64,000 nucleotides of DNA, taken from a virus. Numbering within the stretch: the stretch's first letter is position 1; every line of letters starts with the position of its first letter. Made by a program: the position numbers and the translations under genes. The notes beneath the pieces are model-generated. The model had not been told where the DNA came from. It saw only the letters and a program-made list of their open reading frames with translations, and did no database searches. Of the stretch, positions 2,043-19,179 are shown one piece after another. The DNA lies in IMG/VR virus record IMGVR_UViG_3300047331_000009, positions 1 through 64,000 of that record; one strand, written 5' to 3'.

Positions 2043-4372
2043 GGAACCGCAGTGACGGCCCAGGATTGCGTCGCCGACGGCGCAATCGCATGGCTGGAAG
2101 ACCACGTGATCGCCACCGGCGACAGATTGCTTTCGACCAATTTGTTCGAGACGATCGTGTTGGCGTAGACCTGCAATTGCTGCGTCGCGGTGTCGATCGA
2201 GATCAGGATGTTCACCCACGCCGCCCAGGTGGTGAAGTCATACGTCGCCACCACGATCGCGGCGGACGATGAATCCCAGGCTTTGACGGTGATTTGCGGG
2301 CTGCCGGTGGCGTCGTTCTGGATGGTGATGGACAGGCCCGGCGTCGCCATGCCGCCCTGGTTGGAGAAGATCAGCCCCGTCCCGCCGCTTTCCGGCAGGT
2401 TCAGCCACACCGAGAACAGCGCGGTGTAGAAGCTGGTTGGCAGCCCCACCAGCCCTTGCGCGGTTTCCAGCGTCTCGCCGGTGATGATCACCGAGTTCGC
2501 CTGATAGGTGGTGGTGGTGCTGACCAGCGTGACCGAACCGGTCCAGGGGGTGAAGCAGTTGCCGGCGTGGCGGTTCCACTGCCCGTCGGTCCAGGCGGCC
2601 AGGCGGTGCCATTGCGGCACGCCGGTGAGTTCGCTCGATGTCAGGTCATAGACCCAGGTTTTGTTCGCCTCGGGGAAGGTCAGCACATAGAACTGATGCC
2701 CGCCTTGTTGGCGGCCGTAGCCGATGGCGTCGCCAAGGTTCGCATAGGTGTCGAATTCCGCGATCAGCGCCTGTGTGGAAACCGGGATGAGATTGTAGCC
2801 TTGGGCGCGGACAACGATGCCCTTGCCCTGTTCATTGCGCGACAGCCACAGCAGGAATTCGCCCAGCGGTGCGGGCGAAAACGGCGCGATGGTGCCGCTT
2901 TCCATGCGCGCGGAGGTGAGCAGTGCGAACGGAAACGGCGACGTTCCATTGTCGATCCAGATTTCCGTGTGATTTTCTTTGATCAGGTAAACTTCGTCGT
3001 GAATCACCGCCAAAGACATACAATTATCGGGCGAACTGTCGGAAACGCCGTACGACAGCGGCTGCCATGTCGAGAGGTCCAGTTCGTCGGATGCGGCGAG
3101 GTATTGCTGGCCCTGGAACACCAGCACGCCGAAGCCGTCCGAGATCCCGCCGACGGTCGGGTTGGGAAACGGCAGGGTGATCTCGACCAGCCCGAGAAAC
3201 GAGCCGTATCCGGGCGATGTCAGGGTAAAGCCCGAACCGGAGCCGGAGGTGCTCTTTTGGGTGAAGGTGGCGGCCTTGTCGTTGACCGTTCCGGCCTGGG
3301 TGATGGTGAAGGCGCTGACCATCCCGGACGGGCCGATCGCCGTCACCCGATATGTCGCATCGCCGCTGCCGCCATCGATTGAGCCGACATTGCCGACGAC
3401 GTAACTCTTGCCGCCGGCGACCAGGGTGGAGGCGGTGATCGGCCCGGCGCTGGCGGTGGTGCTGATGATGAAGCCGGTTCCGTTGGCGGCGGGCACGGCG
3501 GGTGCGGCGAGTGTGGCCTGTCCCGTGCCGCTCGCATATTCCGAACCGCCGTAAAGCAGCCGCACCGAGGTGACCACGCCGGCCGACACGCCGGTGACCT
3601 GATACACCGCGTCTTCCGAGTAGGTTTTGATCAGGCCGGTATCGTTCAGCGCGTACTGGCTGCCGCCCGCTGCCACGGTCGCGGCCGTCAGCACGCCCGA
3701 TGTGGCGGTGGTATTGAGTGTCAGGCCCGAGCCGACGCCGGGTTTGCCGGTGATCGCGGTGGTGGTGTTGGAGGTGTTCGAGTTGTACGTCGTCCCGGCG
3801 TTGGGCAGTGTGTAGAGCGTGACCGGATTGTTGGCGATCGCCGTCACCATCAAGATCGGATAGCTGGTCTGGGTTCCCGTCGCCGCTTGCAGGGTGATCG
3901 TGTCGTTGACCGCATACAGGCCGCCGGCGAGGCCGGTGAGTGTGACGTTGGCGCCGGTGGTCGGGTTGGTTGCGCTGCCGGTGATGGTGCCACCGGTCAG
4001 CGGATAGCCGCCAGGTGCCAGCCAGCCGCCGACGCCGTCCACGATCATGATCTGCTTGGTGTTCTGGAACATCGAGACAGGCGCCGTGCCATCGACGATC
4101 TGGCCTATCAGCGTTGCGGTGCCGTTCTCGGTCAGGCTGTAGACGTTGTTGCCGGAGACCACATAGAGCACGTCGTTGAGCACTTTGACGCCGCGCACCG
4201 GGCCGGGTCCGAGTGTGCCGATCAGGTCCAGCCCGGCGGTGAGGTAAAGCGCGCCGGGAACTTTGCCGTCCTTGGTTTCGACGACTTCGAGATAGAGATT
4301 GTAAGCCTCGCCATCGCTGACATTGGCCGACCGGGATCTGGAAAAACCGCCCAGGATCGGGGATTGCGCCAT
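2039..4372 (-). CDS. P22 gp10-like packaged-DNA stabilisation / tail hub protein, lacking the usual C-terminal domain
   Basis: 777 residues against about 470 in P22. The N-terminus (SDGEAYNLYLEVV, GALYLTAGLDLIGTLGPGPVRG, VLNDVLYVVSGNNVYSL) and centre (QGQQYLAASDELDLSTWQPL, NHTEIWIDNG, RNEQGKGIVVRAQGY, WVYDLTSSELTGVPQWHRL) follow the gp10 propeller pattern. Two additions are visible. Residues about 125-385 are an insertion of Gly/Thr-rich units (GSG..L.TTA..G.ITA.T..AGG..Y.V.D). After about residue 620 a jelly-roll/laminin-G-like domain replaces the normal WSDDGG-type C-terminus. RBS GAGAGG precedes the ATG. It plugs the portal after packaging and connects to the tail; the expected partner is the gp4-like protein upstream. 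Confidence 0.85.
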   Translation of the reverse strand: MAQSPILGGFSRSRSANVSDGEAYNLYLEVVETKDGKVPGALYLTAGLDLIGTLGPGPVRGVKVLNDVLYVVSGNNVYSLTENGTATLIGQIVDGTAPVSMFQNTKQIMIVDGVGGWLAPGGYPLTGGTITGSATNPTTGANVTLTGLAGGLYAVNDTITLQAATGTQTSYPILMVTAIANNPVTLYTLPNAGTTYNSNTSNTTTAITGKPGVGSGLTLNTTATSGVLTAATVAAGGSQYALNDTGLIKTYSEDAVYQVTGVSAGVVTSVRLLYGGSEYASGTGQATLAAPAVPAANGTGFIISTTASAGPITASTLVAGGKSYVVGNVGSIDGGSGDATYRVTAIGPSGMVSAFTITQAGTVNDKAATFTQKSTSGSGSGFTLTSPGYGSFLGLVEITLPFPNPTVGGISDGFGVLVFQGQQYLAASDELDLSTWQPLSYGVSDSSPDNCMSLAVIHDEVYLIKENHTEIWIDNGTSPFPFALLTSARMESGTIAPFSPAPLGEFLLWLSRNEQGKGIVVRAQGYNLIPVSTQALIAEFDTYANLGDAIGYGRQQGGHQFYVLTFPEANKTWVYDLTSSELTGVPQWHRLAAWTDGQWNRHAGNCFTPWTGSVTLVSTTTTYQANSVIITGETLETAQGLVGLPTSFYTALFSVWLNLPESGGTGLIFSNQGGMATPGLSITIQNDATGSPQITVKAWDSSSAAIVVATYDFTTWAAWVNILISIDTATQQLQVYANTIVSNKLVESNLSPVAITWSSSHAIAPSATQSWAVTAVP

Positions 4373-4387: not shown

Positions 4388-5113
4388 TTAGTAGTTTCGA
4401 TCCGAGCGGATGTTGTACGTGGACTGGCCGCGCGCGATGATTTCGGGCTCGTAAATCGACCGCTGGGTGCGGTTGTTGTTGCGCTTGACCGAACCGAGGC
4501 TTTCGGCGGCCCGTTTGATGATGATCGGATCAAGCTGGGCGGAGGTGAAATACGGTTTCAGTGCGACCGCCAGGTTGGTCTTGATCGCCAGATTGTAGCC
4601 GGGCGGCAGGGAGACGGCGGTGTAGATCGTCGGGAATTCCGCCAGTTGCAGATACGAGAAGAAGTAGACTTCGTAGACCTGCGACGGGGTTGGCCAGATG
4701 TTGACGATGCCCAAGGGGAATTGCGGGTCGTAGAACAGCGTGTCGGGCAGGTTCGAGTTCACCGCCGCCGTGGTGCGCAGGTTGTAGGTAAGCTGGTCGA
4801 CCACATCCATCGGGTATTTGTTGTTGTTCTGATCGAGGATGTAGGCGGATCCGGCGCTGTCCGAGACGCGCAGCGGGCGGACGTTGCTGATGGTTCCGCC
4901 CGGTCCGCATGTGTACTGGGTGACGTTGACCGCCAGCGCGAATGACTGTTGCAGCCATGCAAAGCAGGTCATCGCGTCGTTCGACCAGCTATCCAGCATG
5001 TCGTTCAGCACGATCAGCGAGCGGGAACTGTCGGCGGAACTGATCGCGTCGCCCGGCCCGTAGACGCCGAGCATTTCGAGACTGTCCTGGATCAGATCGA
5101 GGGCGGTGGTCAT
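4388..5113 (-). CDS. P22 gp4-like tail accessory / head-completion protein
   Basis: 241 residues. The N-terminus (TALDLIQDSLEMLGVYGPGD, then SRSLIVLNDMLDSWSND) is the helical signature of gp4-type head-completion factors, which dock on the portal ring and start tail assembly; P22 gp4 is about 165 residues. It ends with a basic helix and QSTYNIRSDRNY. It lies 15 bases upstream of the gp10-like gene, the same order as in P22-like phages, which supports the call. Confidence 0.85.
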   Translation of the reverse strand: MTTALDLIQDSLEMLGVYGPGDAISSADSSRSLIVLNDMLDSWSNDAMTCFAWLQQSFALAVNVTQYTCGPGGTISNVRPLRVSDSAGSAYILDQNNNKYPMDVVDQLTYNLRTTAAVNSNLPDTLFYDPQFPLGIVNIWPTPSQVYEVYFFSYLQLAEFPTIYTAVSLPPGYNLAIKTNLAVALKPYFTSAQLDPIIIKRAAESLGSVKRNNNRTQRSIYEPEIIARGQSTYNIRSDRNY

Positions 5114-5119
5114 GGCGCG

Positions 5120-5962
5120 TTATGAGGTCGCCATCAGTGCGGCGACCTGTTTGGCCGCGCGTGCGGTCTGGGTATCGCGCGGTGATCGCCGGCTCTGCGG
5201 CTTGCGCGGTTTCGCGGATTTCGCCCGCTGTTTCGCGGGTGTGGCCGGTTCCGGCAGGGTTTCGTCGGGCACCGGCGCCTCTGCTGCGGCCTGGCGTTCC
5301 TGCTGCATGGCTTCAGGTGCGGCGAACATAGGCGGGTGCATCCGGTTGGCCGCCATGAACTGCACGAACATCAGCTTGATTTCGCTCATATCCGCTTCCA
5401 GCGCGGTCATGCGGGCATCCAGCAGCGCGGTTTGCGGCGCAGGTGGCGGGTTGGACTCTGGTGACGGCGCGGGTTCGGGCGGGGCCTCATGGGCGATTTC
5501 AGGGACGGGGTCTGTCGGCGTGATTTCCGGCGCGTCCTCTTCCCCAGGCGGCTCGATGCCAAGCTGCACCCGCCGCTTATGCGCCGCCGCTTCCTCTTCC
5601 TCGCGGTTATTGACCAGGAAATCGCCCACCCATTTCGGGTATTCCTTCGGCCGGTAGTTTTCGTCCGGCGGCGGCATTGCCTGCACCGCCGCAGCGAACG
5701 CGGCCGGGTCGGACTTGCCCTGGGTGACATAGCCCTGGCTGCGGTAATACTCTTCCTGGTCGGCATCGCGCACCAGCATCGGCGGATAGCGAATGGGCGT
5801 TCCGCCAACGTGGTAGCTGAAACCCGCCGGTGAGCGCACTTCCTCGCCCACACGCCCCGGCTGATACGCCGGATGCGTCATGTATTTCGGATATTCCTTA
5901 TGCTCGCGTGTCGGCGGTGCATCGCGAATGATCGTGTCGGCGTGCTGTTGCAGCATCGGCAT
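5120..5962 (-). CDS. Proline/alanine-rich virion-associated protein with coiled coil, unknown function
   Basis: 280 residues from the ATG MPMLQQHADTIIRDAPP, chosen because GAAAGGA lies just upstream and the preceding stop is 2 bases away. The N-terminal half holds KEYPKYMTHPAYQPG, later echoed by KEYPKWVGDFLVNNREEEE, so a short 'EYPK' motif occurs twice. A Pro/Glu-rich linker (about 135-180) is followed by a helix-forming segment (LDARMTALEADMSEIKLMFV) and a Lys/Ala/Arg-rich tail. The YPKYMTHP segment is typical of small phage head-region proteins I cannot name. Placement between coat and gp4 suggests head morphogenesis. Confidence 0.7.
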   Translation of the reverse strand: MPMLQQHADTIIRDAPPTREHKEYPKYMTHPAYQPGRVGEEVRSPAGFSYHVGGTPIRYPPMLVRDADQEEYYRSQGYVTQGKSDPAAFAAAVQAMPPPDENYRPKEYPKWVGDFLVNNREEEEAAAHKRRVQLGIEPPGEEDAPEITPTDPVPEIAHEAPPEPAPSPESNPPPAPQTALLDARMTALEADMSEIKLMFVQFMAANRMHPPMFAAPEAMQQERQAAAEAPVPDETLPEPATPAKQRAKSAKPRKPQSRRSPRDTQTARAAKQVAALMATS

Positions 5963-5964
5963 CG

Positions 5965-6345
5965 TTATGTCCTTTCGATCAGCATGACGGCGTGCATCGC
6001 GCGCCACACCGCTTCCGCCTGCTTGTCCGGCGTTGCGTCGCAGTAATATTGCAGCGCTTTTGCCCCTGCCGTCAGCATCATCTGACTGGGTGCGGCCACG
6101 GCGTTGAGGCAGGTTTTCGCCAGCGGCACATAAACACCCCAAGCCGGAAATGTCTGATCCGCCGGCAGTGCGACCAGATAGCCGCGCGGTCCATACAGCG
6201 GCGCCTTTTGCATCCCGAGCATGGTGTCGGGATCTTCACCTTCCGACAGGCACATTGCCCGCGCCGCTGCCTCGACCGTGTCCATCTCGCCCTCGTTGTT
6301 GCCGCTGGCAAAGAGGTAACATTCCCCGTCGATGTCCAACAGCAT
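5965..6345 (-). CDS. Hypothetical head-region protein
   Basis: 126 residues from the ATG (MLLDIDGECYLF); GTG and TTG one and two codons upstream are alternatives, and no strong RBS distinguishes them. It contains alternating hydrophobic strands (YLFASGNNEGEMDTVEAA, APLYGPRGYLVALPADQTF) and a C-terminal helix. No known family recognised. It sits between the head-fibre-like gene and the proline-rich gene and is translated in step with them. Confidence 0.6.
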   Translation of the reverse strand: MLLDIDGECYLFASGNNEGEMDTVEAAARAMCLSEGEDPDTMLGMQKAPLYGPRGYLVALPADQTFPAWGVYVPLAKTCLNAVAAPSQMMLTAGAKALQYYCDATPDKQAEAVWRAMHAVMLIERT

Positions 6346-6363
6346 CACCAAATTGGCGTTGCG

Positions 6364-6672
6364 TTACGCCAGCAGGCCCTGCTGCTTCAGCATGGTGACG
6401 ATGTCACCCACCGAATAGGCGGTGGTGCCGGTGCCACCGGTAAAGGTGGTGTTGGTGAACACGTTGGTGGTGCTGCCGGCCGCGCTGGTGGTGGTGTTGG
6501 GCGAACCCGGCTGGGTGAACTGCACAACGCAGGTCACGCCGTAATGGCTGATCAGGTCGGTCGGGCTGTTGCCGAACGTGGTGCCGATCGGGTTGCCATC
6601 GGACAGCGCCCGCTGGTTGGTGGTGGTGGTGATGATGCCAGAGGTAACCGGTTCGTTGTTGGGGCCAGCCAT
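6364..6672 (-). CDS. Small phage virion protein (YGVT-type head fibre-like)
   Basis: 102 residues. The pattern NPIGTTFGNSPTDLISHYGV followed by CVVQFTQPGSP, a Thr/Ser-rich stretch, and a C-terminal helix VGDIVTMLKQQGLLA matches a common small phage structural family (LGQS..D.IAFYG..PV.Q...LK..GLI), often found next to coat genes. Membership is recalled, not tested. GGAG lies 11 bases before the ATG. Confidence 0.7.
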   Translation of the reverse strand: MAGPNNEPVTSGIITTTTNQRALSDGNPIGTTFGNSPTDLISHYGVTCVVQFTQPGSPNTTTSAAGSTTNVFTNTTFTGGTGTTAYSVGDIVTMLKQQGLLA

Positions 6673-6673
6673 G

Positions 6674-6994
6674 TCAGTTTACTCCGTGAATTGAAGGCGC
6701 AATCGGGGTGAGTGGAACGATGGCAACGTGTTTCCAGGTGCGTTCGCGGCCCAACGCGATCTGCTTATTGATGGCCGCCGCACACAGGCCGCAGGCGTCT
6801 TTGATCATCGCCGGTCCGACCGGCAGCAACTTACCAGTTTCGGCAACCGTGACGACAAGCTGATACAGCACCTCGGGCGCTTTCCGCTTGGTCATCAGGG
6901 CGGCAATCTCGGGCGGTATCGGCGCGCCGTTGCGTTCCTGCTCGACCTGTTCGGCGAATTGCTTTCGAAAGCGTTTGATCTGGCGAGGCGTCAT
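6674..6994 (-). CDS. Hypothetical protein downstream of the coat gene
   Basis: 106 residues with a strongly basic N-terminal helix (MTPRQIKRFRKQFAEQVEQ) and a helical middle (PEVLYQLVVTVAETGKLLPV) holding CGLC. It ends 1 base before the next start. The capsid-distal hairpin lies just upstream, so it is probably expressed at a lower level than coat. Function unknown. Confidence 0.6.
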   Translation of the reverse strand: MTPRQIKRFRKQFAEQVEQERNGAPIPPEIAALMTKRKAPEVLYQLVVTVAETGKLLPVGPAMIKDACGLCAAAINKQIALGRERTWKHVAIVPLTPIAPSIHGVN

Positions 6995-7072: not shown

Positions 7073-8257
7073 TTAGTTGGTCAGCCGGGCGGCGAGTTCT
7101 GGATAAAACGTGCTGGTGCCGTACAGCACATCGATACGGCACGGAGTAACGTCGTTAAATATGTCGAAAGCCCGAACGATACGCATGCTGATTGCGCGAT
7201 ACATCTCACGTGCAGCGAAGTCCACGCCGCCCGGTAACTCCATGGGAACACACACTAACCCGAACGCATCGCGGGTAAACCCGATGTTCTGGAAATAGGT
7301 GGTTGATGCCGTTCCAAGAACGGTTATCGCAGCCGAGTTCGCCGGGGAGTTCGAAACGTTCTGATAGGCGCCGGTGGTGGTGATCGCGGGGCTGATGGCC
7401 AGGGTCGATGCGCCGCCGCCGGAAGACGAAGCGGTGGTGGTGACGACAAAGTTCATCAAGCTGCCGGTGGACTGGCGACTTTGCGGGTTGATCGCGAACA
7501 CCCCCGCGATGGTGAACACGTCGCCCACGTTCAGCAGGGTGGCGATGCTGTTCGACCAGCCCTGCGTGACCAGCGATGCCCCGGTCTGCCCAGCGCCGTT
7601 GACGGTCGGGGTGCCGGCATAGTTGCCGACGGTCTGGCTTTGGATGTTCTGGTCTTCGTAGATTTCGAAGTTGGCGATCGCGGCCAGGAAGCCTTTCAGT
7701 GCCGGTTCGGCAACCGAACGGGTGAACAGGTTGGACAGCCCGTTGGCGATCGACCAGTAGGCGGCGGGGTTGAGGATCAGCACGCGGCCGTCCTGCGGTG
7801 CGGCCTGCTCGTCAAGCCGCTGGCCGACGGCGGCGAGCGAGGCAAACGAGTTCGGCAGGGTGCCAGGCGTGCCAACCTCGCTGTAGATCGCGGTGAAGTT
7901 TTGCAGCACCGAGATATCGATCTGGTTGGCGATGGTGGCGGCGGCGGGCTTGCAATACCGCTCCGAGTATTCCTCGATGGTCAGCGTCAGTTCCTGGCTG
8001 CTGAACTGGAAGTCCACATGCGCCTGGGTGGAGACGGTGATCGAGGTTGACGGCTCGCTGATGTCCTGGATCTGCAAAGCCGGGCCAAGGGTGATCTTGA
8101 ACCGGTTCGGCTTGCGCACGGTCAGCGTGGTGCCGATCTTGACGAACTGGTTTTCGAACTGACGGTTGACCTTGCCGGCTGCGACAAGGTTGTTCTCCAG
8201 GATCACCAGTGTTTCCTTGGTGATCAGGGCCGGCGTGAGTAGGGCGTTTGAGGCCAC
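7073..8257 (-). CDS. Major capsid protein, P22 coat (gp5)-like
   Basis: 394 residues from a GTG start with AGGAG at a 7-base spacing. The opening SNALLTPALITKETLVILEN, then FVKIGTTLTVRKPNRF, STQAHVDFQFSSQELTLTIEE and YCKPAAATIANQID is the conserved N-terminus of P22-type coat proteins, which form the T=7 shell with a scaffold. The C-terminus (FDIFNDVTPCRIDVLYGTSTFYPELAARL) also fits. It follows the scaffold and one small gene, as expected, and ends just before a terminator hairpin. Confidence 0.92.
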   Translation of the reverse strand: MASNALLTPALITKETLVILENNLVAAGKVNRQFENQFVKIGTTLTVRKPNRFKITLGPALQIQDISEPSTSITVSTQAHVDFQFSSQELTLTIEEYSERYCKPAAATIANQIDISVLQNFTAIYSEVGTPGTLPNSFASLAAVGQRLDEQAAPQDGRVLILNPAAYWSIANGLSNLFTRSVAEPALKGFLAAIANFEIYEDQNIQSQTVGNYAGTPTVNGAGQTGASLVTQGWSNSIATLLNVGDVFTIAGVFAINPQSRQSTGSLMNFVVTTTASSSGGGASTLAISPAITTTGAYQNVSNSPANSAAITVLGTASTTYFQNIGFTRDAFGLVCVPMELPGGVDFAAREMYRAISMRIVRAFDIFNDVTPCRIDVLYGTSTFYPELAARLTN

Positions 8258-8803: not shown

Positions 8804-9931
8804 TCAGTGCCGCGCCGCAACGCGCTCAGTGACGTTGAAGAACGGTTTGCGGCCGTTCATGATCTCGGGGTTACGCTTGGCCGCCCATTCATCCATCGAC
8901 GGCTCGCGTTCGGACGTATCGGCGGGTGCTGTGTTGCGCTCGATCGGCTCGATCGGCTTGGCGCGCGTCGCGCGCGGCTTCGGCGCCGATAGCTGTGCCG
9001 CCAGCTTGCAAACCTCGACCATCTGCAACACCGGGCTCGGCATCGCGGCAATCTTGGCACTCTCTTCGGGGTTCTGGCCCAGATACATCGCAACGTCAGT
9101 GCCGTTTTCGAGGCCCATCATCGCAGACGCCATCGGCATCGAGACGACATGATCGCCCTCGGCAACCTTCTCGTAATCGGGGTATTTCTCGATCGCCGCC
9201 GTACGCCGCGCGGTCCAGATCGCAGCTTGGCGCGCCGCTTCCGCTTCGGCGTCGGCCTTCGCCTTGGCCTGCGCTTCGGCTTCCTGCTTGGCGGCAACCT
9301 TGCGCACGCCCTCGCGTTCGGCCCATTCGGTCAGCGCGGTGTCATACGAATCGGGGTCATCGAACGCATCGCGGGTCGGGCGGGCATCGACAACCGGTTC
9401 GAGGGGCTTGGCTTGTTCGGGGGTCTTTTCCGCCGCCGCGCGCAACGCCGCGAGTTCCGCCCGCGCTGCCGCCGCAGCGTCCGTCGCGGCTTTGATGGCA
9501 GCGGCGGCTTCGGCAACCTGGGTGCGCGAGACCTTGCGTGCCTTCGATATCTCCCGCACCGCCCATGTCGGGGTGCCTGGGGGAAGATCCGAAACGTCAA
9601 CTTCATCGTCCTCGCCGGCGGCTTCAACTTTGACTTCCGGCTCAGTTGGTTCGGCCTTGGCGGTCTTGTCGGCTTTCGCCGGTTTTGCAGGCTTCTCAGT
9701 CGTTTCTGGGTCCGCACCGGCTTCCACCGATCGCGCCGCATCCGCTGCGGCCTTCTCCTGCAACGTCATTTCCGCCGGGATGCCGGCATCGTTGTCGTCG
9801 GCATGGTTGGATGCGGATACCGGTGGCTTTGCCACCTCGGCCAACGGGGAGTCGGACGTCGCCGACAGCGGCGGGGCTGTGCGAATGAGGATGTCAGGTG
9901 GGCGCGAAACGGCAATCGATGCCACGGGCAA
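8804..9931 (-). CDS. Scaffolding protein, P22-type
   Basis: 375 residues, highly charged and Ala/Glu/Lys-rich with long coiled-coil-forming stretches (about 125-260) and RPTRDAFDDPDSYDTALTEW in the middle, a motif common to phage scaffolds of this class. It is located immediately before the coat block. The start is TTG at 9931 or GTG at 9925; AGGAG sits 4 or 10 bases away. It would direct procapsid assembly and leave before or during packaging. Confidence 0.8.
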   Translation of the reverse strand: MPVASIAVSRPPDILIRTAPPLSATSDSPLAEVAKPPVSASNHADDNDAGIPAEMTLQEKAAADAARSVEAGADPETTEKPAKPAKADKTAKAEPTEPEVKVEAAGEDDEVDVSDLPPGTPTWAVREISKARKVSRTQVAEAAAAIKAATDAAAAARAELAALRAAAEKTPEQAKPLEPVVDARPTRDAFDDPDSYDTALTEWAEREGVRKVAAKQEAEAQAKAKADAEAEAARQAAIWTARRTAAIEKYPDYEKVAEGDHVVSMPMASAMMGLENGTDVAMYLGQNPEESAKIAAMPSPVLQMVEVCKLAAQLSAPKPRATRAKPIEPIERNTAPADTSEREPSMDEWAAKRNPEIMNGRKPFFNVTERVAARH

Positions 9932-10073: not shown

Positions 10074-12857
10074 TCAAATCAGCGCCGAAAGCAGCATCAA
10101 AACATCAGCGTCATCGGCGATCAGGCGCATCATTTTCAGCGCATCCGCCTCCGCCTCAGCCGCGATCGTTGCCGCATCGTCGGCGCGAATGGCATCCAGC
10201 AACGTCGCTGCGATCTCGGCCGCAATCGCATCCGCCGCGAACGGGACAACCTCGATGACCGGCGGAACAACGAAGATGATCGCCTGTTCGGGCGGGATAT
10301 CGGCGATCGGTGCCGGCAGGTCGGGCACGTCGTCTTGCGGCAACAGACCGATTTCAATGCGCGACTGGCGCAGCCGCGCCGCTTCTTGCGCTGCCAGGTC
10401 AACGTTCGAGGTGTCCAGCAGCCGCCGATAACCGGGCGGCGGCTCAATGCACTGGTCATTCGCTCCGCCGAACACGACCTCTATTTCGCCGCGCTCGTCC
10501 GGGATTGCGGCGTCGGTGACAACCGCAGAAGCGGTTTCGTCAACCGATAGGCCGTCATTGACAACCGATGCCGTCCATTCGGCCGGGATCGATTGATCGA
10601 CCAGCACCGCAGATACAGAACTCGTCCACTCGTTTGGATCGTTCTGCGTGACCATCACGCCGGTCAGGCTTTCAACCGGCACGCCCCGATCGGTGGAGGC
10701 GGCGGCCTGTGCTTCTGCCGGTATCGCCGCATCGCCAGCGACCAAGCTGGACCACTCGATTGGACTTGAAGCGTAGGTTTGGACTGATCCAAGCCCTTCC
10801 GTTGGTTCGCTCGTGTCACGCTGCACACCGGCCAACGACTCGACCGGGCTGGCGCCGACGGCTTGCACGGATGGCATCGCCTCGGCCGGGCTTGCGCTGT
10901 CGGTATCGACCGAGATCAGGTCTTCATTTGCCGTGACGCTGTCGGTCGCCACCCCGGCCAGCGATTCCACCGGCGTCGCACCCGTCGCCGCCACCCATTG
11001 CAGCGCGTCAACCGGGCTCGTTGTGTCGGTGCTGACCGTGCCTGTGGTTTCGTCCGGCGCGCTGGCGTCGCTCTGCACGCCAACCAGCGATTCGACCGGG
11101 CTTGTGCCCTCGGTTTGCGCCGATTGCAGGCTTTCGGCCGGGCTTTTGCCGTCGCGACTAACCGAAACCATGGCCTCGGTCGGCGCCGATGCGTCGGTTT
11201 CAACCGTGCCGGTCCATTCCGTCGGCGCCGAGGCGTCGGTCTGGACCATGAGCGTCGAGCCAAGCCATTCCAGCGGAATGTTGGTATCGACCTGCACCGC
11301 CAGGACCGAACTTGTCCATTCCGTCGGCGGGGCTTCGTCGCCGATAACACCGGCCGCAGCCTCAACCGGCGCCGTGCCATCGGCGGCTACCGTGGCGGTC
11401 GTCTCCGCCGGGCTGGCGTTGTGGGTCTGCTCGTTGGCCTGCGATTCTGCCGTCGGGGCTTGATCGGTGGCGACGCCAACCAGCCGTTCTGTCGGTATCG
11501 CACCGGTGGTGGCGGTGGAGATCAACCACTCCGCCGGGATCGCCGTTGTGGTGACCGGCTGGCCGTGCCAGCGGTTGATAATCTTTTCGTCGATGCTGAC
11601 GTTGGCCGTCGTTTCCGCTGGGATTGCTGTATCGCCCGGCAGCGCGCCCAGCCACTCGTTGAGCGGCGGCGTCTCGGTGTGCACCGCCGAGGACGTCTCC
11701 GCCGGCACCGCCGCATCCGTGACGGGCTGGCCGTGCCAACGGTTGATGATCTTGTCGTCTATGCTGACATTGGCCGTCGTTTCCGCTGCGATCGCGGCAT
11801 CGGCGGTTGGAGATCCAAGCACGGCGTTCGGCGTCAGCGCGTCCGATTCCAGTGCCGATGCGTTTTCCGCCGGAATGGCGCTGGTGGTGGTGGGCTGCCC
11901 ATGCCAACGGTTGATGATCTTGTCGTCTATGCTGACGTTGGCGAGCGTTTCGTCGCGCGGGGCCGCGTCGGTTTGCAGCGATGCGACCGTTTCGGTCGGT
12001 GGCGTGGCGTCGGTGCGAACCAGATCAACCGAGGTTTGCAGCGGCACATTGGCGTCGGTTTCAACCGAAGCCGTCCATTCGGTCGGCATCGACTGGTCGA
12101 TCATCACGGTCGGGAACACGCCCAGCCATTCGATCGGGATCGAAGCGTCGATTTGCACCGGCAGCACGGTGCTCAACCATTCTGTCGGGCTGATCTCGGT
12201 GGTGATGACACCCGAGAGGCTTTCGTCTGGCAGAGTGCGGTCGCGGACAATGCCGCCCAGGTTTTCCACCGGAATGGCGCCGGTGGTGACTTCGTTGGCC
12301 GATGATTCTGCCGGCGTCAGGCCCACATTCGCGGTCGCGGCACTGCGTTCGGCCGGTATCTGGCTGTCCCTGGCGACGCCGCTGAGGTCTTCGACCGGCC
12401 CATTGGCGTCGGTGATGACGCCTTCCAACCGCTCGTTGGGGATCTGGCTGTCGCCGCGCGCACTGCCGAACCATTCGTCCGGGATGGCGGTGTCGCCGCG
12501 CGGGCTGCCGGACCGTTCGCTGGGCACATTGCCGTCGGTGCGCGAACCGGTGAAATTTTCCACCGGCAGGTTGCCGTCGGTGCGCAGCCCTTCAAGGTTT
12601 TCCAGCGGCACATTGGCATCGGCGCGCACACTGGCGAGGCTTTCCGCCGATATCAGCCCGGTGGTTTGCGGCGAACCGGAGATCGAGTCGGGACTGTTGG
12701 CGTCGGTGCGAACGCCAACCAGCGCCTCGTCGGGAACGGCAATGTCACGGCGCAGGCTTTCCAGCCACTCGGCGGGCGCAAAGCCGTCAATCTGCACCAG
12801 GAACTGTGTGCGCCCGGCGGCGTAGGCGGTGCTGGAATAGGCGGATGAGCCGTACAT
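10074..12857 (-). CDS. Giant 14-residue-repeat protein, probably virion-associated
   Basis: 927 residues. From about residue 25 to 789 it is made of about 54 tandem units of 14 residues with consensus L.GV.TDA..P.E. (for example LEGLRTDGNLPVEN, FGSARGDSQIPNER). A few units carry 3 extra residues (LSTVLPVQIDASIPIEW). Three copies of NVSIDDKIINRWHGQP recur exactly 168 bases (56 residues, four units) apart. The last 138 residues are unrelated and end in an Ala/Asp-rich helix. No Cys network or signal peptide is visible. It lies between the fibre and scaffold genes. I know no function; a repetitive fibre or spacer is the simplest guess. Confidence 0.85.
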   Translation of the reverse strand: MYGSSAYSSTAYAAGRTQFLVQIDGFAPAEWLESLRRDIAVPDEALVGVRTDANSPDSISGSPQTTGLISAESLASVRADANVPLENLEGLRTDGNLPVENFTGSRTDGNVPSERSGSPRGDTAIPDEWFGSARGDSQIPNERLEGVITDANGPVEDLSGVARDSQIPAERSAATANVGLTPAESSANEVTTGAIPVENLGGIVRDRTLPDESLSGVITTEISPTEWLSTVLPVQIDASIPIEWLGVFPTVMIDQSMPTEWTASVETDANVPLQTSVDLVRTDATPPTETVASLQTDAAPRDETLANVSIDDKIINRWHGQPTTTSAIPAENASALESDALTPNAVLGSPTADAAIAAETTANVSIDDKIINRWHGQPVTDAAVPAETSSAVHTETPPLNEWLGALPGDTAIPAETTANVSIDEKIINRWHGQPVTTTAIPAEWLISTATTGAIPTERLVGVATDQAPTAESQANEQTHNASPAETTATVAADGTAPVEAAAGVIGDEAPPTEWTSSVLAVQVDTNIPLEWLGSTLMVQTDASAPTEWTGTVETDASAPTEAMVSVSRDGKSPAESLQSAQTEGTSPVESLVGVQSDASAPDETTGTVSTDTTSPVDALQWVAATGATPVESLAGVATDSVTANEDLISVDTDSASPAEAMPSVQAVGASPVESLAGVQRDTSEPTEGLGSVQTYASSPIEWSSLVAGDAAIPAEAQAAASTDRGVPVESLTGVMVTQNDPNEWTSSVSAVLVDQSIPAEWTASVVNDGLSVDETASAVVTDAAIPDERGEIEVVFGGANDQCIEPPPGYRRLLDTSNVDLAAQEAARLRQSRIEIGLLPQDDVPDLPAPIADIPPEQAIIFVVPPVIEVVPFAADAIAAEIAATLLDAIRADDAATIAAEAEADALKMMRLIADDADVLMLLSALI

Positions 12858-12870
12858 CAGGCCCTACCGA

Positions 12871-15057
12871 TCAGAAATCGGCGCTGAAGGCTGCGGTAAA
12901 CGAGCCAAACGCTGCGCCGACTCCGGTGATGCTGATCTGGATGCGGGCTTCGCTGACGGTTGTTGCGTTCACCGTCGCGGCCGAAGCGTTGCCGTAGCTG
13001 GCGCCGCTTAACGTGCCTGTCGGGGCCACGCGCATCGTCACGGGGAAGATGAAATCCTGGATCGCCGCGCCCGCAGCGAGGCCATAGCTGGTGTAGACCT
13101 GCAACGTCGAAAAGACCTGATAGAAACGCTGGCAAAGCACCAGATCGCGGCCGATTTCCTTGGTCTCAAGCGGCGACGCGACAGGGCCGACTTCGAGTTG
13201 CATGCCCCAGAAGGTGAAGGTGCCGGACTGCACCCCGACACCCAAGGTCGGACTGGCTGCGGCACCCGCCGAAAGACCCAGGGCGACTAGAAGACTGCTC
13301 GTGTTGGCCGTGGTTCCCAACGTCTTGCCCGAGGTCGAGGGCACGGTGAACGTCATGCTGTAGCGCGCCCAGCTTGTCGTGATCGCCACACTTTGCGTGC
13401 CGAACGACACGGACGCCGACGGTGAACCGCCGCTGCCGAAATTCTGGCTCATGTAGCCGCCGACGTTCAGCGCCACCGAACCTTTGGCCCAGAAACTTAG
13501 CACAACGGTCTTGTTGGCGGTCCGGCGCACGTCCTCGGTGTATTGCAGGATCTGCGTCAGGCCGGTGCTCACCCCTGCCACCACGCATTGCAAGGCGTTT
13601 TCGGCATACTCATTGCCGATCCCGGACCGGTCGGTGTCGGTCAGCGACGCGACGGTGATGCTGTCGGTGTCATTGGCCAGCGACAGTATCCACCGATCGG
13701 CGGTGTAGACGCTCGCCGTGGTAAACGGTCCGGTGCCTCGCTGTGCGATGTTGAACAGGGGGTTGTGGAAGATGTTGCGCCCGACATTGGCGGTGACCGG
13801 CGCCAGGGTGACGGTGTTGTTGGCGGTCAGGGTGGTGAACGCGCCGGTCGATGGCGTGGTGGCGCCGACCGTGGCGTTGTTGATCGATCCGCCGGTGATC
13901 GCCGCCCCTTTCGACAGGCTCACCAGACCGCTGGCGCGGTTGATCGTCAGCGGTTGCGCCAGAAAGCCGCCCGCGTCGGTGTTCGAATTGAAGAAGAAAT
14001 TGGCGCCCGCGTTCGATCCGGACTCGGTCGAGTTATCGACACCGACTTGCCAGCGCGATACCCCGCCTGAGTAAAAATTCATAAGCCGGTAGTTGGCCGC
14101 TGCGGTGTTGAAACTCAGCGAAGCGCCGGTCTGCGTATTCGTGCCGATCGATATCCCGCTGGTGGTGGCGATCAGACCGACACCGCTGACCGTCGATGTG
14201 GCGGTGACGGTGGTGAACGAACCGGCCGCCGGCGTCGTCCCGCCGATCACCACGCCGTCGATGGTGCCCGCGCTGCCCGAGATCGAGGATACGGTGATGA
14301 AGTTGAACGTCGCCGCCGCCGGCGTGCTGCCGCCGATGATCGTGCCGTCGATCGTGCCGCCGGTGATGGCGGCCGAGGCCGAACCGAGATCCGGGATGGT
14401 CACAAGTCCGGTGGCGCGGTTGATCGAAAGCACAGCAGCGAGAAAGCCGCCCGCATCGGAATACGAGTCGATGGCTAGATTGCTGCCCGCGTTCGATCCG
14501 CTTTCGGCCTCGCCGCTGGTGGCAATCGACCAGCGAGCCAGGAACCCGCTGTTGAAATAGATGATCCGGTATTGCCCGGCGGCGGCGCCGATATTGAGGA
14601 TCGATTGGTTGGCGCCGGTGGAGCCGATGTAAAGCTGCGGGTTGGTCCCGTTCATCACGATGTTGGCGCTGGCCGTGTACTGGCCCGACGTTGCGAGCGT
14701 GGTGAACGCGCCGCTGTTCGCCGCCGTGCCGCCGATCGCCGGAGGGGAGGCCAAGGTCTCGGTCTGCGTCAGCGCGGTGAACACCACCGTCACGATGCCG
14801 TTCCCCGACAGGCTGATCAGCGAGCCGGTGGACGAAGACCGCAGGCTCCGCGCCAGCGTCGGACCGGTCGAGTTATACGTGCCGACGCCGATCTCCCAGG
14901 CGTTGCCGTCCTCGATCAGATACTCGACCGTGTTGCCGTTGCTCACACCCGCTGCGGCAAAGGTCTGATACGCCGTCGCCGCCGAACCTAGCGTGATGGT
15001 ACCGGTACCGGTGGTCGCGGTGCTCATCCGCGCCCGGTCAACATAGGTCAGGGCCAA
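12871..15057 (-). CDS. Tail fibre-like protein with C-terminal receptor/carbohydrate-binding-type domain
   Basis: 728 residues from a TTG start with GGGAG 7 bases upstream. The N-terminal 95 residues ([38 protein letters not shown]) are a common phage fibre attachment domain. The middle carries several TPAAGSFTT / ATLNRA-type fibre repeats ([30 protein letters not shown]). The last about 280 residues match a distal phage domain ([51 protein letters not shown]) thought to fold as a galactose-binding-like sandwich. Receptor binding is inferred. Confidence 0.85.
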
Positions 15058-15086: not shown

Positions 15087-16181
15087 TCAGGTCGAGGTGC
15101 CGAAACTCCGCAGGTCGAAGAAGGTGTTGGTCGGCGCCAGCGCCGGCGGCAGGGTTTCCCGCATCCAGAAGCCTTGCGCCTGCGCGGCAGAGTTCGACGC
15201 GGCGGTCTGCGCCGGCGGCGTTACGGTCTGCGGCGCCGCACCGGACGAATATGAGCCAACGCCGGTGCTGGGCGCGGTCTGGCGGTTGGTGGTGGTGTTG
15301 GTGTCATTTAGCGCCGTGCACGGGGCGATATCGAACGCACCGCCACCCGAATACAGCCCCGACGGGTCAATCTGCTTGATCAGGGTCTGCGAGGTCAGCG
15401 CGGTAGTGCCGTCCGTGTTCAGGACGAACGCCTTTTCGTAGTAGAGCCGGGTCGAACCGCCCACCACGTCCGACGCCACGGTGGAAAACGGCCGGATGAC
15501 CGCTGTGACCGGGTTGGGCAGGATCGGGAACAGCATGCCCGTCGCCACCTCATAGGTCGTGGTCGCGTCCGGCACGGTGCCCCAGTCGCGGTTCACCGCG
15601 ATGATGTCGGTGCCATACTGCCCCGAGCCGGTGCCAGAGGTGCTGCACGCCTGTCTGATCTGGCCCGAACCGGTGCCGCCGGTCAGGTGGATGATCATGC
15701 CCAGCGTGATGCTGGCCCCGTCGCCCGATTGCAGCTTGATGGTCGGAGGCGTCACGCCGGAATGGTTCGCACTGCCAGCCTGGCAAGTGTGGCCGCTGAT
15801 GGTCAGGGTGTGCGCCATCGCCGCCACATCGCCCACCGCTGCGGTCCCGCCGGGGTTGGCCAGCGGGCCGTTGGCACTGGCACCCGAGATCGCGCCGAAC
15901 AGCAGGCGCTGAAACGACTGGCTGCCGTTGATCTTGACCTGCCCGTTCAGGGTGACGGCGGCCGGGGTTTGCAAGATGCCCGAGGCGTCGCGCCCGGCCA
16001 CCTGGATCTTGGTGGCGGTGTCAGAGGAGGACGAGGACAGGAAATCGATCGTGCCGGTCGCCGCCATGTCGCTGAAGGTGATGATCTTGGTCAGGTCCAC
16101 CGCGCCGCCGACGGTCACGCCGTCGGTTTCAGGCATGTTGGCGGAGCCGTAGATGTTGATCTCGGTGGCAAAAACGCTCAC
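15087..16181 (-). CDS. Virion structural protein of unknown function
   Basis: 364 residues, GTG start with AAGGA 7 bases upstream and a GTGA overlap with the preceding gene. The beginning (TEINIYGSANMPETDGVTVGGAVDL) and the Gly/Ser/Thr-rich beta composition are typical of phage particle proteins of this gene neighbourhood. The C-terminus ends NTFFDLRSFGTST. It lies between the portal-linked coiled-coil protein and the fibre. No catalytic motif visible. Confidence 0.75.
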   Translation of the reverse strand: MSVFATEINIYGSANMPETDGVTVGGAVDLTKIITFSDMAATGTIDFLSSSSSDTATKIQVAGRDASGILQTPAAVTLNGQVKINGSQSFQRLLFGAISGASANGPLANPGGTAAVGDVAAMAHTLTISGHTCQAGSANHSGVTPPTIKLQSGDGASITLGMIIHLTGGTGSGQIRQACSTSGTGSGQYGTDIIAVNRDWGTVPDATTTYEVATGMLFPILPNPVTAVIRPFSTVASDVVGGSTRLYYEKAFVLNTDGTTALTSQTLIKQIDPSGLYSGGGAFDIAPCTALNDTNTTTNRQTAPSTGVGSYSSGAAPQTVTPPAQTAASNSAAQAQGFWMRETLPPALAPTNTFFDLRSFGTST

Positions 16182-16801
16182 GGGCTTGTCCTTGCTTCGG
16201 GTGGTTGGGTGGGGGTGGAAACGACGCTGGAAACGGCCCCGGTCGCCAGACCGTCCTGGCCGCGCTCAAGTGCCACGCGCCGTGGCGCCCGGATGGCGGC
16301 CTCGATGCTGTGCGACCACGAGGCGATGCCCGAGGTCAGCGCCGGTTGCGCATCGGCGAGTTGCTTGACCTGTGCGGCCAGCGCCTGCTGCCCGGCCATC
16401 ACCTGCTGCAAGGTCGATTGCATGGTCTCGATGACCGGCTGCTGCGCCGCCTGCATCGCGCTCTGCACATCGGCGGTCCACTTGTTCAGCTTGTCGACCA
16501 GCGTTGCCACCTGATCGGCAAGATCGCGCTGCGCCTCGACCAAGGTGATGATGTCGTCCGCCAGCCCGTCGGGCAGCGCCATGGTGACATCCAGAGGGGT
16601 GCTGACGGTGATCGCGGCCGAGGTGCGCCCAGGCTTTGGTTCGCCGTCCTGCTTGGCCTGTGGCCCCGTCTCAGGCGCCGTATCGGCCGGTTTCGGCTTG
16701 GCCTTGGCGGGCTTGGTGTTGTCGGACACCAGTTTCGGGGTCCAGGCATCCGCATGATGCACCGGCCGCCACGGATCGGACGGGTTCATCGCACCGCTCA
16801 T
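16178..16801 (-). CDS. Coiled-coil protein next to portal
   Basis: 207 residues. A Lys/Pro/Ala-rich N-terminal 70 residues precede a long helical region (about 78-175; LITLVEAQRDLADQVATLVD and MQSTLQQVMAGQQALAAQV) predicted to form a coiled coil. It overlaps portal and the next gene by 4 bases each. It could be an assembly chaperone or ejection protein; no family recognised. Confidence 0.7.
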   Translation of the reverse strand: MSGAMNPSDPWRPVHHADAWTPKLVSDNTKPAKAKPKPADTAPETGPQAKQDGEPKPGRTSAAITVSTPLDVTMALPDGLADDIITLVEAQRDLADQVATLVDKLNKWTADVQSAMQAAQQPVIETMQSTLQQVMAGQQALAAQVKQLADAQPALTSGIASWSHSIEAAIRAPRRVALERGQDGLATGAVSSVVSTPTQPPEARTSP

Positions 16802-19179
16802 GTCTTCACCCGCACCGGCTGGCCGTTCGAGAGGGTCCAGGTCTGCCCGTTCGCGAACGTGGTGTTGCGGCCTTCCCGCAGATGTGAGAGGGCTTGCGGC
16901 GGTGGCGTGGCTTCGTCAGCGGAAGCCGGGTTCGAACCGTCGCCGCCCGTCGCCGCCGCTGGGGCGCCACCCTCGGCGGCGGCTGGCGGGTTTTCCAAAG
17001 CCTGCATCAGCGCGGCGGTATCCGCACCCATTTCGCGGATTTGCGCGCCGATATGGGTGTTGAAATTGGCCTTCGCCTTCTCTTCCGTCGCCGCCATCTT
17101 GGTCTCGACGTCGGCCACGATCTTCAGCAGCTTGGCCTCGTAATCCTTGTTGAATTTGTCGGCCGCCAGCGCCCGGTCCTGGTTCTTGTCGGTCAGCGCC
17201 GCCATCGCCTGCTGTAGCTGCTGGGTAAGCTGCTTGATCTGGCCGTCCATCGACGCCAGCAGCGCCTGCACCTGCGGCGAGAGGTCCTTCTGGTCGGGCA
17301 CCAGCAGGTTGGGCGGCAGGGTCTTGGCCAGCCGTGTGGCGATCTCTTCCGCGCCCGGCCAGTCCATGTTCTTGGCGATCAGATCGGCGATCAGCGCGGC
17401 GGTCTGCGGCAGCGCCTTGGCGAAGGCGATCATGTTCTCGCCCGCTTCCACCCGCTTGGTGGCGAAGTTCGGCCCGATCGTGACCGTGACGCCGTACTTG
17501 CCCATGACCGGGTTGAACACCCGCATCATCTTGCCGTCGGGCTTGCGCATTTCGCCCATCGGCTTCGGCTGCGCGGGGTCGATCTTGACCTGCTCTTCTT
17601 TGTCGTCTTCGCGAAGGATCGTGATGATGCGGGATTCGCTGTAAATCTTCGGGATCAGTTCCAGCATGATCTCGCCAGTACGTCGCAGCGACTGGGTGAG
17701 GTTGTCGATGAAGTCAAACGCGCCGATATCACCGGACTGGCGCAGTTCCCGCAGCGCTTTGCCGCTTTCGTCCATCGTCCGTTCGGCCAGCGTGCTATCG
17801 AACCGGACGCCGGTTATTCCCATCAGATGCTGCTGCGCGGACTGGCTGGCCTCGACGATGCCCGCCGGGACGCCAGCAAAGGCGACACGTTGCGGCGGCG
17901 GGGCGGGCGTGCCGTTCACCGAGGTGCCCTTGTAGGACAAATAGGGCGTCGAACGGATGTTCGACATCTTCCACTCGTCTTCGTGGCCCTCGAACTGGCC
18001 TTCCTCGCCGATGTAGGGCGATTTCGGCGCCAGCGCGACCATCTCGGTCTTGCTGGTATCCCAGTAATTGATCATGCGCTGCGCGTCCTTGGCGTCGCGC
18101 ACGATGCCTTTCAGCTTCGGCCGCCCCTCGATGTCGAGTTCCCGGCCGGTCACCTTGACGATCGGGATGGTGCTGCCCAGCCATTCCCGTTCCATCAGCA
18201 CGTCATTGGCGGTGACCTTGTACCACATCACCTGCGGGATCCGCGCCTCGCGCTCGTCCGTCACCCACAGCTTGCCGCGCTTGATGTAGCCATCGGTGAT
18301 CTCGTCGAGTTCGTCTTCCCAGCCGGTATGGCCGTTGCTGAGTTCGATCAGCGTCCTGGTCTGGTATTCGATCTCGAAATACTCGGCGATGCGGATTTCG
18401 TCGGTGGTGATCCACTGCTTCATCGTCTCGCCCAGACCGGCCTGGGTGAAAGGCATCTGGTCGGCTTTCGGCCATTTCTCCTTGAATTCTTCGCGCGGCA
18501 GCAATTCCGACACGAAACCCCATTTCGCGTCAGAACCGTCGATCTCCTGGTGTGACGGATCGAGATAAACGGTGAACGGGTTGCGGATGCGCTTGACCAC
18601 GAGCACGAGGTTGAAGCTGTCCGGCGCCTCCCATTCCGTCAGCACCCGCCAATACCCCCAGCCCATCGTGACGGAATCGGCAAACCCGGTGTCATAGGGT
18701 CCGTTTGGCGCATTGGCTCCGCAATCGCGTTCAATGAACCGGATCATGCCCCGGTACATCTTCGCCACCTCGGCATCGCCGCGCTCGCCGGTCGGGCTGA
18801 TGTTGATCGAGGGCCTGGACTGGCGTTGCGCGTTGGTGATCTGGCTGATCAGGGTGGGGAACTTGTTGAAGGTGAGGCACGGTCGCTTGTCGAGGTTGCG
18901 CTGTGCCACCACTTCGGACGGCCACTGGTTACCGGCGACAAACGAGCGGTCATCCATCCCGGCTTTGCGGTTGTCGGACTCGGCCGCGATGGCGCGGTCC
19001 ATCCGCTTGCGCACCCGTTCCAGCAGCTTCTGCTGCTTTTTCTTGTCGCCACGCGGACCGCCCAGCATGGTGCCCTTGTCGTCCATCTTGAACGGCGGGC
19101 TGATCTTGTTCATCGCGCTGTCGGTGGGCGGCATGCGGATGCGCCCGTCGTCTTTCGGCCGGGTGGTGTCCTGCGGCAT
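16798..19179 (-). CDS. Portal protein, P22-like
   Basis: 793 residues, similar in length to P22 portal (about 725). Recognisable features are RAIAAESDNRKAGMDDRSFV, AGNQWPSEVV..RNLDKRPCLTFNK, ITNAQRQSRPSINISPTGE, RNPFTVYLDPSHQEIDGSDA and the C-terminal half with a long helical barrel-like region rich in Gln and Ala (about 640-740). Twelve copies form the DNA channel at one capsid vertex. TerL normally lies close by, but here it is 9.6 kb away, with the mini-gene cluster in between. Confidence 0.92.
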   Translation of the reverse strand: MPQDTTRPKDDGRIRMPPTDSAMNKISPPFKMDDKGTMLGGPRGDKKKQQKLLERVRKRMDRAIAAESDNRKAGMDDRSFVAGNQWPSEVVAQRNLDKRPCLTFNKFPTLISQITNAQRQSRPSINISPTGERGDAEVAKMYRGMIRFIERDCGANAPNGPYDTGFADSVTMGWGYWRVLTEWEAPDSFNLVLVVKRIRNPFTVYLDPSHQEIDGSDAKWGFVSELLPREEFKEKWPKADQMPFTQAGLGETMKQWITTDEIRIAEYFEIEYQTRTLIELSNGHTGWEDELDEITDGYIKRGKLWVTDEREARIPQVMWYKVTANDVLMEREWLGSTIPIVKVTGRELDIEGRPKLKGIVRDAKDAQRMINYWDTSKTEMVALAPKSPYIGEEGQFEGHEDEWKMSNIRSTPYLSYKGTSVNGTPAPPPQRVAFAGVPAGIVEASQSAQQHLMGITGVRFDSTLAERTMDESGKALRELRQSGDIGAFDFIDNLTQSLRRTGEIMLELIPKIYSESRIITILREDDKEEQVKIDPAQPKPMGEMRKPDGKMMRVFNPVMGKYGVTVTIGPNFATKRVEAGENMIAFAKALPQTAALIADLIAKNMDWPGAEEIATRLAKTLPPNLLVPDQKDLSPQVQALLASMDGQIKQLTQQLQQAMAALTDKNQDRALAADKFNKDYEAKLLKIVADVETKMAATEEKAKANFNTHIGAQIREMGADTAALMQALENPPAAAEGGAPAAATGGDGSNPASADEATPPPQALSHLREGRNTTFANGQTWTLSNGQPVRVKT

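Follow-up and report, generated by a model that had tools for sequence, protein, structure and literature searches.

What is a protein made mostly of short tandem repeats doing among the head genes of a phage, and is it peculiar to that phage? The question is raised by a stretch of 64,000 nucleotides (positions 1 to 64,000 of the virus record IMGVR_UViG_3300047331_000009 in IMG/VR, which has 88,432 bases in all), called here the window. Its initial annotation had described a 927-residue protein composed of about 54 copies of a 14-residue unit. The open reading frame is present, and 54 units could be delimited in it. We refer to the run of units as the array and divide the gene as follows, with positions counted in the window.

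10074..12857, minus strand: the whole array gene, 927 aa, ATG start; relatives L011 and L012 have it at the equivalent place
12810..12857, minus strand: N-terminal 16 residues, rich in G, Y and S (MYG...YS...Y), kept in L011 and L012
10494..12809, minus strand: array of 54 units, residues 17-788, from a fitted profile and manual boundaries
12129..12179, minus strand: 17-residue unit, residues 227-243
12078..12128, minus strand: 17-residue unit, residues 244-260
11268..11318, minus strand: 17-residue unit, residues 514-530
11217..11267, minus strand: 17-residue unit, residues 531-547
10578..10628, minus strand: 17-residue unit, residues 744-760
11892..11939, minus strand: higher-order motif NVSIDDKIINRWHGQP, copy 1
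11724..11771, minus strand: higher-order motif, copy 2, identical in its 16 residues and 94% identical to copy 1 in nucleotides
11556..11603, minus strand: higher-order motif, copy 3, with one D-to-E change
10077..10493, minus strand: C-terminal domain, residues 789-927, also in L011 and L012; its first part also in the array-less L083 and L156

The periodicity of the 54 units is far beyond chance. Autocorrelation of the protein, the check that had been proposed for it, peaked at 14 aa (z 17.6 against 200 shuffles) and again at 28, 42 and 56 aa (z 19.7), and a fitted 14-column profile scored 675, where 20 shuffles reached at most 15.5. Unit boundaries were placed by hand, starting from this profile, in which 50 units scored; the last of them was discarded because it fell within the C-terminal domain (score 0.9), and five degenerate units were added in gaps. 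Forty-eight units have 14 residues, one has 15 and five have 17, the last being the few longer units already reported, and the array occupies 83% of the protein, in line with the earlier figure of more than 80%. The units were said to have diverged strongly with their period preserved. Their mean pairwise identity is indeed only 29%, and yet P is kept at position 11 in 44 of the 54, E at position 13 in 47 and D at position 7 in 40. The higher-order motif begins at residues 307, 363 and 419. Its reported spacing of 168 bases (exactly 56 aa) thus stands, while the reported exact identity of all three copies fails at the third. The persistence of a 14-residue period at such low identity makes the unit relevant to the design of repeat proteins.

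The array gene is located between a fibre and a scaffold gene within a structural cassette, as first described. The fibre gene ends 13 bp upstream, the scaffold gene lies downstream, and the order on the minus strand is portal, p207, p364, fibre, array gene, scaffold, coat.

16798..19179, minus strand: P22-like portal (PF16510, E 1.1e-161)
16178..16801, minus strand: p207, shared with the cassette that holds the array-less homologue in L156
15087..16181, minus strand: p364, 364 aa, the array-linked partner-gene family, two genes upstream of the array gene
12871..15057, minus strand: tail fibre gene, 728 aa, directly upstream of the array gene (phrog_4492, E 3.8e-50)
8804..9931, minus strand: scaffold (phrog_8865, E 2.1e-22)
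7073..8257, minus strand: major coat protein (PF11651, E 6.1e-43)

Portal and coat are P22-like, and P22-like phages have short tails. The named phages closest in portal sequence, which are P22-like by annotation, show about 40% identity, the portal of Rhodoferax phage P26218 being 39.9% identical over 74% of the query. The window phage has in common with P22-like podoviruses such as P26218 the order of portal, scaffold and coat genes. In P26218, however, a scaffold-like gene directly follows the portal, whereas in the window four genes, p364, the fibre gene and the array gene among them, stand between the two. Elsewhere in the window, two proteins encoded far apart (60610-62367 and 378-2219) both match one stretch of phrog_578 (head closure Hc3) and one of phrog_19101, and positions 2039-4372 match a different stretch of phrog_578.

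How constant is the array among close relatives? A search with p364 led to two related contigs, L011 and L012, with an array protein at the equivalent place. These proteins have the N-terminus and the C-terminal domain of the window protein. A comparison of repeat number among relatives, suggested at the outset, gave 54 units in the window, about 30 in L011 (579 aa; 28 scored, plus unit-length gaps within the span) and about 23 in L012 (480 aa; 22 scored, plus such gaps). Among pairs of arrays 45-99.5% identical, 90 of the 161 gaps of at least 10 aa were multiples of 14, as were 90 of the 418 gaps of at least 5 aa, in counts where the pairs are non-independent, weak arrays are included and the 10-aa limit was chosen once the counts were known.

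Other relatives have no array at all. In L083 a short protein encoded before the scaffold gene has the C-terminal domain of the window protein (43% identity over 75 aa) and is without repeats, and a search with this type of domain yielded a second array-less homologue in L156, where a homologue of p207 is present and neither the array nor p364 was detected in the record. The presence of p364 in L083 cannot be judged, since the contig starts inside the ORF that precedes the array-less gene. The C-terminal domain thus occurs without the array in both records, and on comparison of these homologues the array is an optional extension, inserted into a small conserved protein. In two further loci the region before the scaffold differs: the gap between portal and scaffold is about 4.5 kb in L088, the corresponding region of L087 is alike, and the ORFs there, in place of fibre genes, look partly like HNH endonucleases by eye.

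The repeat is not restricted to this group. A pattern of two P.EW units 14 residues apart matched 38 stretches, many of them with a single match and failing the spacing screen. Long arrays were found in L033, L040, L041/L062 (one contig), L043, L046, L050, L053, L055, L056, L057, L058 and L068, those of L055 and L068 and those of L057 and L058 being near-identical; L045, on a 172-kb contig, has a weaker one. Their consensus across phages is D..IP.EW every 14 residues, with tryptophan in most rows, and in an alignment inspected by eye the phase of the units and the approximate place of the extra residues agree between the window and the other arrays. A 19-row profile was taken from seven loci (L033, L040, L043, L050, L053, L055 and L056), whose rows had been aligned together with those of the window, L011 and L012 before the latter were removed. 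It gave 281.7 bits on the window protein (L001), compared with at most 7.5 for 200 shuffles, 11.1 for the reversed sequence and at most 42.6 for 50 column-permuted decoys that keep the period, which places the window protein in the array family; L012 scored 151.7 bits and L011 94.5. The phrog_156 portal family occurs in 10 of the 17 array-bearing records, L014 and L015 included; the remaining seven may be fragmentary or come from phages of another type. In L043, two tandem phrog_2448 proteins (4634-6684) separate the coat region from the array gene.

The databases had little to say about the window protein itself. Pfam, PHROGs, NCBIfam and PDB sequences gave nothing usable for it and no recognised binding domain: a match to YajR_YAM (E 0.007; 16.6 bits, where the cut-off is 26; 19 residues) and one to phrog_7112 (E 0.02) were weak and were set aside. 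Searched with tblastn, 50,697 phage records held no match to the window protein at E<=0.01 or to the L011 protein at E<=1. Three other candidates were rejected: a 42-bp repeat of Microcystis phage LMM01 (E 4) lies between annotated genes, its three same-strand translations are without the unit, and we regard it as chance; a match in Aeromonas phage BUCT552 is on the strand opposite its gene; and one in Brevundimonas phage Delta (E 9e-3) is to L056 outside the array. In the genome contigs, none of 52 pattern matches to the C-terminal domain was confirmed, and a stricter array pattern had no match. The 14-residue repeat was not described in the literature searched, from which most subscription journals were absent. 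All the same, the statement in the initial annotation that no characterised phage protein of this kind is known is not supported as it stands, since many phages carry the repeat and some of its carriers are labelled 'tail protein' in PHROGs. Of nine array proteins from other phages that were scanned, five (L040, L043, L053, L055 and L056) match this family, phrog_6079, over the repeat region (best E 1.7e-13). The window protein (hmmscan, E<=1) and those of L046, L011, L014 and L033 (E<=0.1) do not match it, and the family carries the label only.

Does the array travel with other genes? Its linkage with p364 is the strongest new result of this analysis, and it goes beyond what was first read from the sequence. 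Homologues of p364 are present in 10 of the 17 array-bearing records. In six of the remaining seven the contig continues for at most about 5.5 kb on the downstream side of the array, less than the distance to p364 in comparable records; the seventh, G004 (locus L046), has the array and about 20 kb of downstream sequence, in which p364 was not found. Among 20 control contigs, consisting of L156 and 19 contigs of at least 34 kb from the coat-protein search outside the window group, none had p364 and none had an array, with models that do detect both in array records.

A search with p364 only, taken at the best 80 of 115 relatives with L011, L012 and L013 dropped and L019 added, gave 78 loci, among them L014 and L016, both of which had contributed to the search alignment, together with near copies of the two. 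An array ORF was found at E<1e-5 in 54 of these loci; seven more were weak and 17 had none. The coat-protein search, taken at the best 80 of 111 relatives and directed at phages with matching head genes, gave 76 loci outside the window group, and none had an array at E<1e-5, these controls being of one head lineage and unmatched in flank length. Fisher's p for the contrast is 6e-23, a value that ignores relatedness, with loci that are partly related and counts that are non-independent. The 19-row profile gave 31 of 78 loci against 0 of 76. At 90% nucleotide identity the 78 loci form 46 clusters, 34 of them with an array. All 54 array ORFs share the strand of p364; 51 follow it downstream, 42 of these at a distance of no more than 2 kb. 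A score of at least 40 bits is reached by 27 of the 54; since the other 27 fall below this, and 2 of 1134 reversed decoys passed the array cut-off (at 33.3 and 31.6 bits), some of the weak calls may reflect period and composition. In the window, too, p364 lies nearby on the matching strand (15087-16181). Thus p364 and the array appear linked across many phages, and a widespread, mostly unannotated repeat family gains a common partner gene.

More direct hints of function come from fusions. In L224 the array follows a concanavalin A-like (lectin) domain, Laminin_G_3 (E 1.5e-23). The other nine of the ten p364-linked array proteins scanned had no Pfam domain at E<=0.01, and the N-termini are varied, some starting with what by eye look like glycine-rich or beta-sandwich-like segments. 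The second fusion is in Vibrio phage vB_VspM_VS2 (L163:18477-20396; the record is unannotated and marked UNVERIFIED), where a homologue of gp15, which we take to be the tail connector or completion protein gp15 of T4, is extended at its C-terminus by an array with tryptophan at nearly every 14th residue. Residues 6-221 of its 439 match solved gp15 (E 2e-52; 182 bits to 4huh_A), the solved chain 3j2m_A having 272 aa, whereas the window protein matches nothing in PDB at E<=1. The VS2 array gives an autocorrelation z of 11.6 at 14 and 35.2 bits to the 19-row profile (500 shuffles, at most 7.9). Directly after the gp15 homologue comes a p364-like ORF, a weak match (tblastn E 9e-3, hhalign probability 22%), which one ORF separates from the large terminase, and the neighbour on the other side matches the neck protein gp14. 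In the near relative VS1, a 1311-bp 'tail sheath stabilizer' is listed at the position of the gp15-array gene, and the table of that phage, which takes in only about 116 of 389 genes, has no entry in the gap of the p364-like match (PMC10473537).

What shape might the array take? For a 202-residue piece of the window array (54 rows), the best AlphaFold2 model had a mean pLDDT of 60.7, the other four lying at 24-36, with two short strands placed in each unit at low confidence. For the L055 array (25 rows) the best mean pLDDT was 52.0, with one strand of at least 3 residues per unit. By residue count, both low-confidence models put a strand at x-E-[W]. An alignment of repeat blocks shifted by whole units was not used for folding. 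With Foldseek at E<=0.001, neither the window model (searched in PDB and BFVD) nor the L055 model (searched in BFVD only) matched anything. On these models a beta-rich rod is plausible. No confident solenoid model or match to a solenoid structure came out of these runs, and the solenoid suggested in the initial annotation stays a candidate fold.

Taken together, we consider it probable, if not by a wide measure, that the array protein is a virion appendage with a stalk of variable length, attached by its C-terminal domain and working in a module with p364. Its parts would be a very short N-terminus, a stalk of 54 units and, at the other end, a small C-terminal domain. This domain would be the constant part, probably attached to the virion or to the fibre base, and the array an optional spacer whose reach would be set by the number of 14-residue units. 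As an extended beta-rich rod, the array could keep an adhesin or fibre at a distance from the particle, and together with p364 it would act beside the fibre and head genes of a phage with a P22 portal. It is from gene position and the fusions only that we infer the presence of the protein in the virion. The fibre or spacer role put forward in the initial annotation gains from the variation in array length, the array-less relatives, the lectin fusion and the gp15 fusion, though the role itself is still reached by deduction. The gp15 fusion suggests the neck as the site of attachment, and the gene order in the window phage suggests the fibre base. The former, found in a cultivated phage, provides a location on the particle that can be tested. 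Should the array prove to be a stalk, its varying number of units would offer a natural series for how far a phage adhesin must reach. It is tempting to speculate further, on ground that we consider rather doubtful, that p364 and the array are the two parts of an appendage anchored at the neck or close to it, a module that has spread through phages with quite different particles (P22-portal phages, the myophage VS2 via gp15, and others), in which gain and loss of whole units tunes the length of the arm while lectin and other domains replace one another at the tip.

Alternatively, the array itself might be the binder, the tryptophan of each unit contacting a surface glycan so that many weak contacts add up. 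The consensus across phages, with tryptophan in most rows, and the near-regular tryptophans of VS2 speak for this. In the window protein, however, tryptophan is kept in only 11 of 54 units where P, E and D persist, so that its conserved signal looks structural, and we regard a binding array as unlikely. The protein could also be a chaperone that stays out of the virion and aids the folding or assembly of the fibre, since it is encoded right after the fibre gene. In the same sense, the array-less homologue of L156 is preceded by an ORF whose N-terminus matches that of the window fibre (E 3e-11), and in L083 the preceding ORF is fibre-like, by eye only and with no PHROG match. As the window fibre gave no significant match to the ORF before the array of L014, we claim no shared fibre gene for that locus. 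A variable array of 54 units would not be expected of a chaperone, and elsewhere arrays occur in fusion with a lectin domain or with gp15; this explanation seems to us quite unlikely. An array without a fixed role, generated by slippage of units under little constraint, would fit the seemingly frequent gains and losses of whole units and the two relatives without an array, but the persistence of P, E and D at 29% unit identity and the linkage with p364 across many phages make it very unlikely. Finally, a length ruler in the manner of tape measure proteins is hardly credible: these do have tandem units in variable number with W or F at fixed positions (PMC3271669), but the periods published there are 11 and 18 as against 14 in the window, their genes are placed differently, the window phage has a P22-like portal and coat, and the VS2 array sits on gp15.

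Beyond the stalk and its rivals, some minor observations were made in the same phages. The part of the window phage's record that follows the window holds an ORF of 4685 residues with ResIII and Helicase_C domains (L004:3823-17880; record positions 67823-81880); the protein next to it has a phage tail lysozyme domain. In three related phages the P22-like portal gene is interrupted in frame, at a similar place, by a LAGLIDADG_3 homing-endonuclease insert (L095:3919-7269, L117:4759-8118 and L149:4846-8136), which, by its motifs, is presumably an intein.
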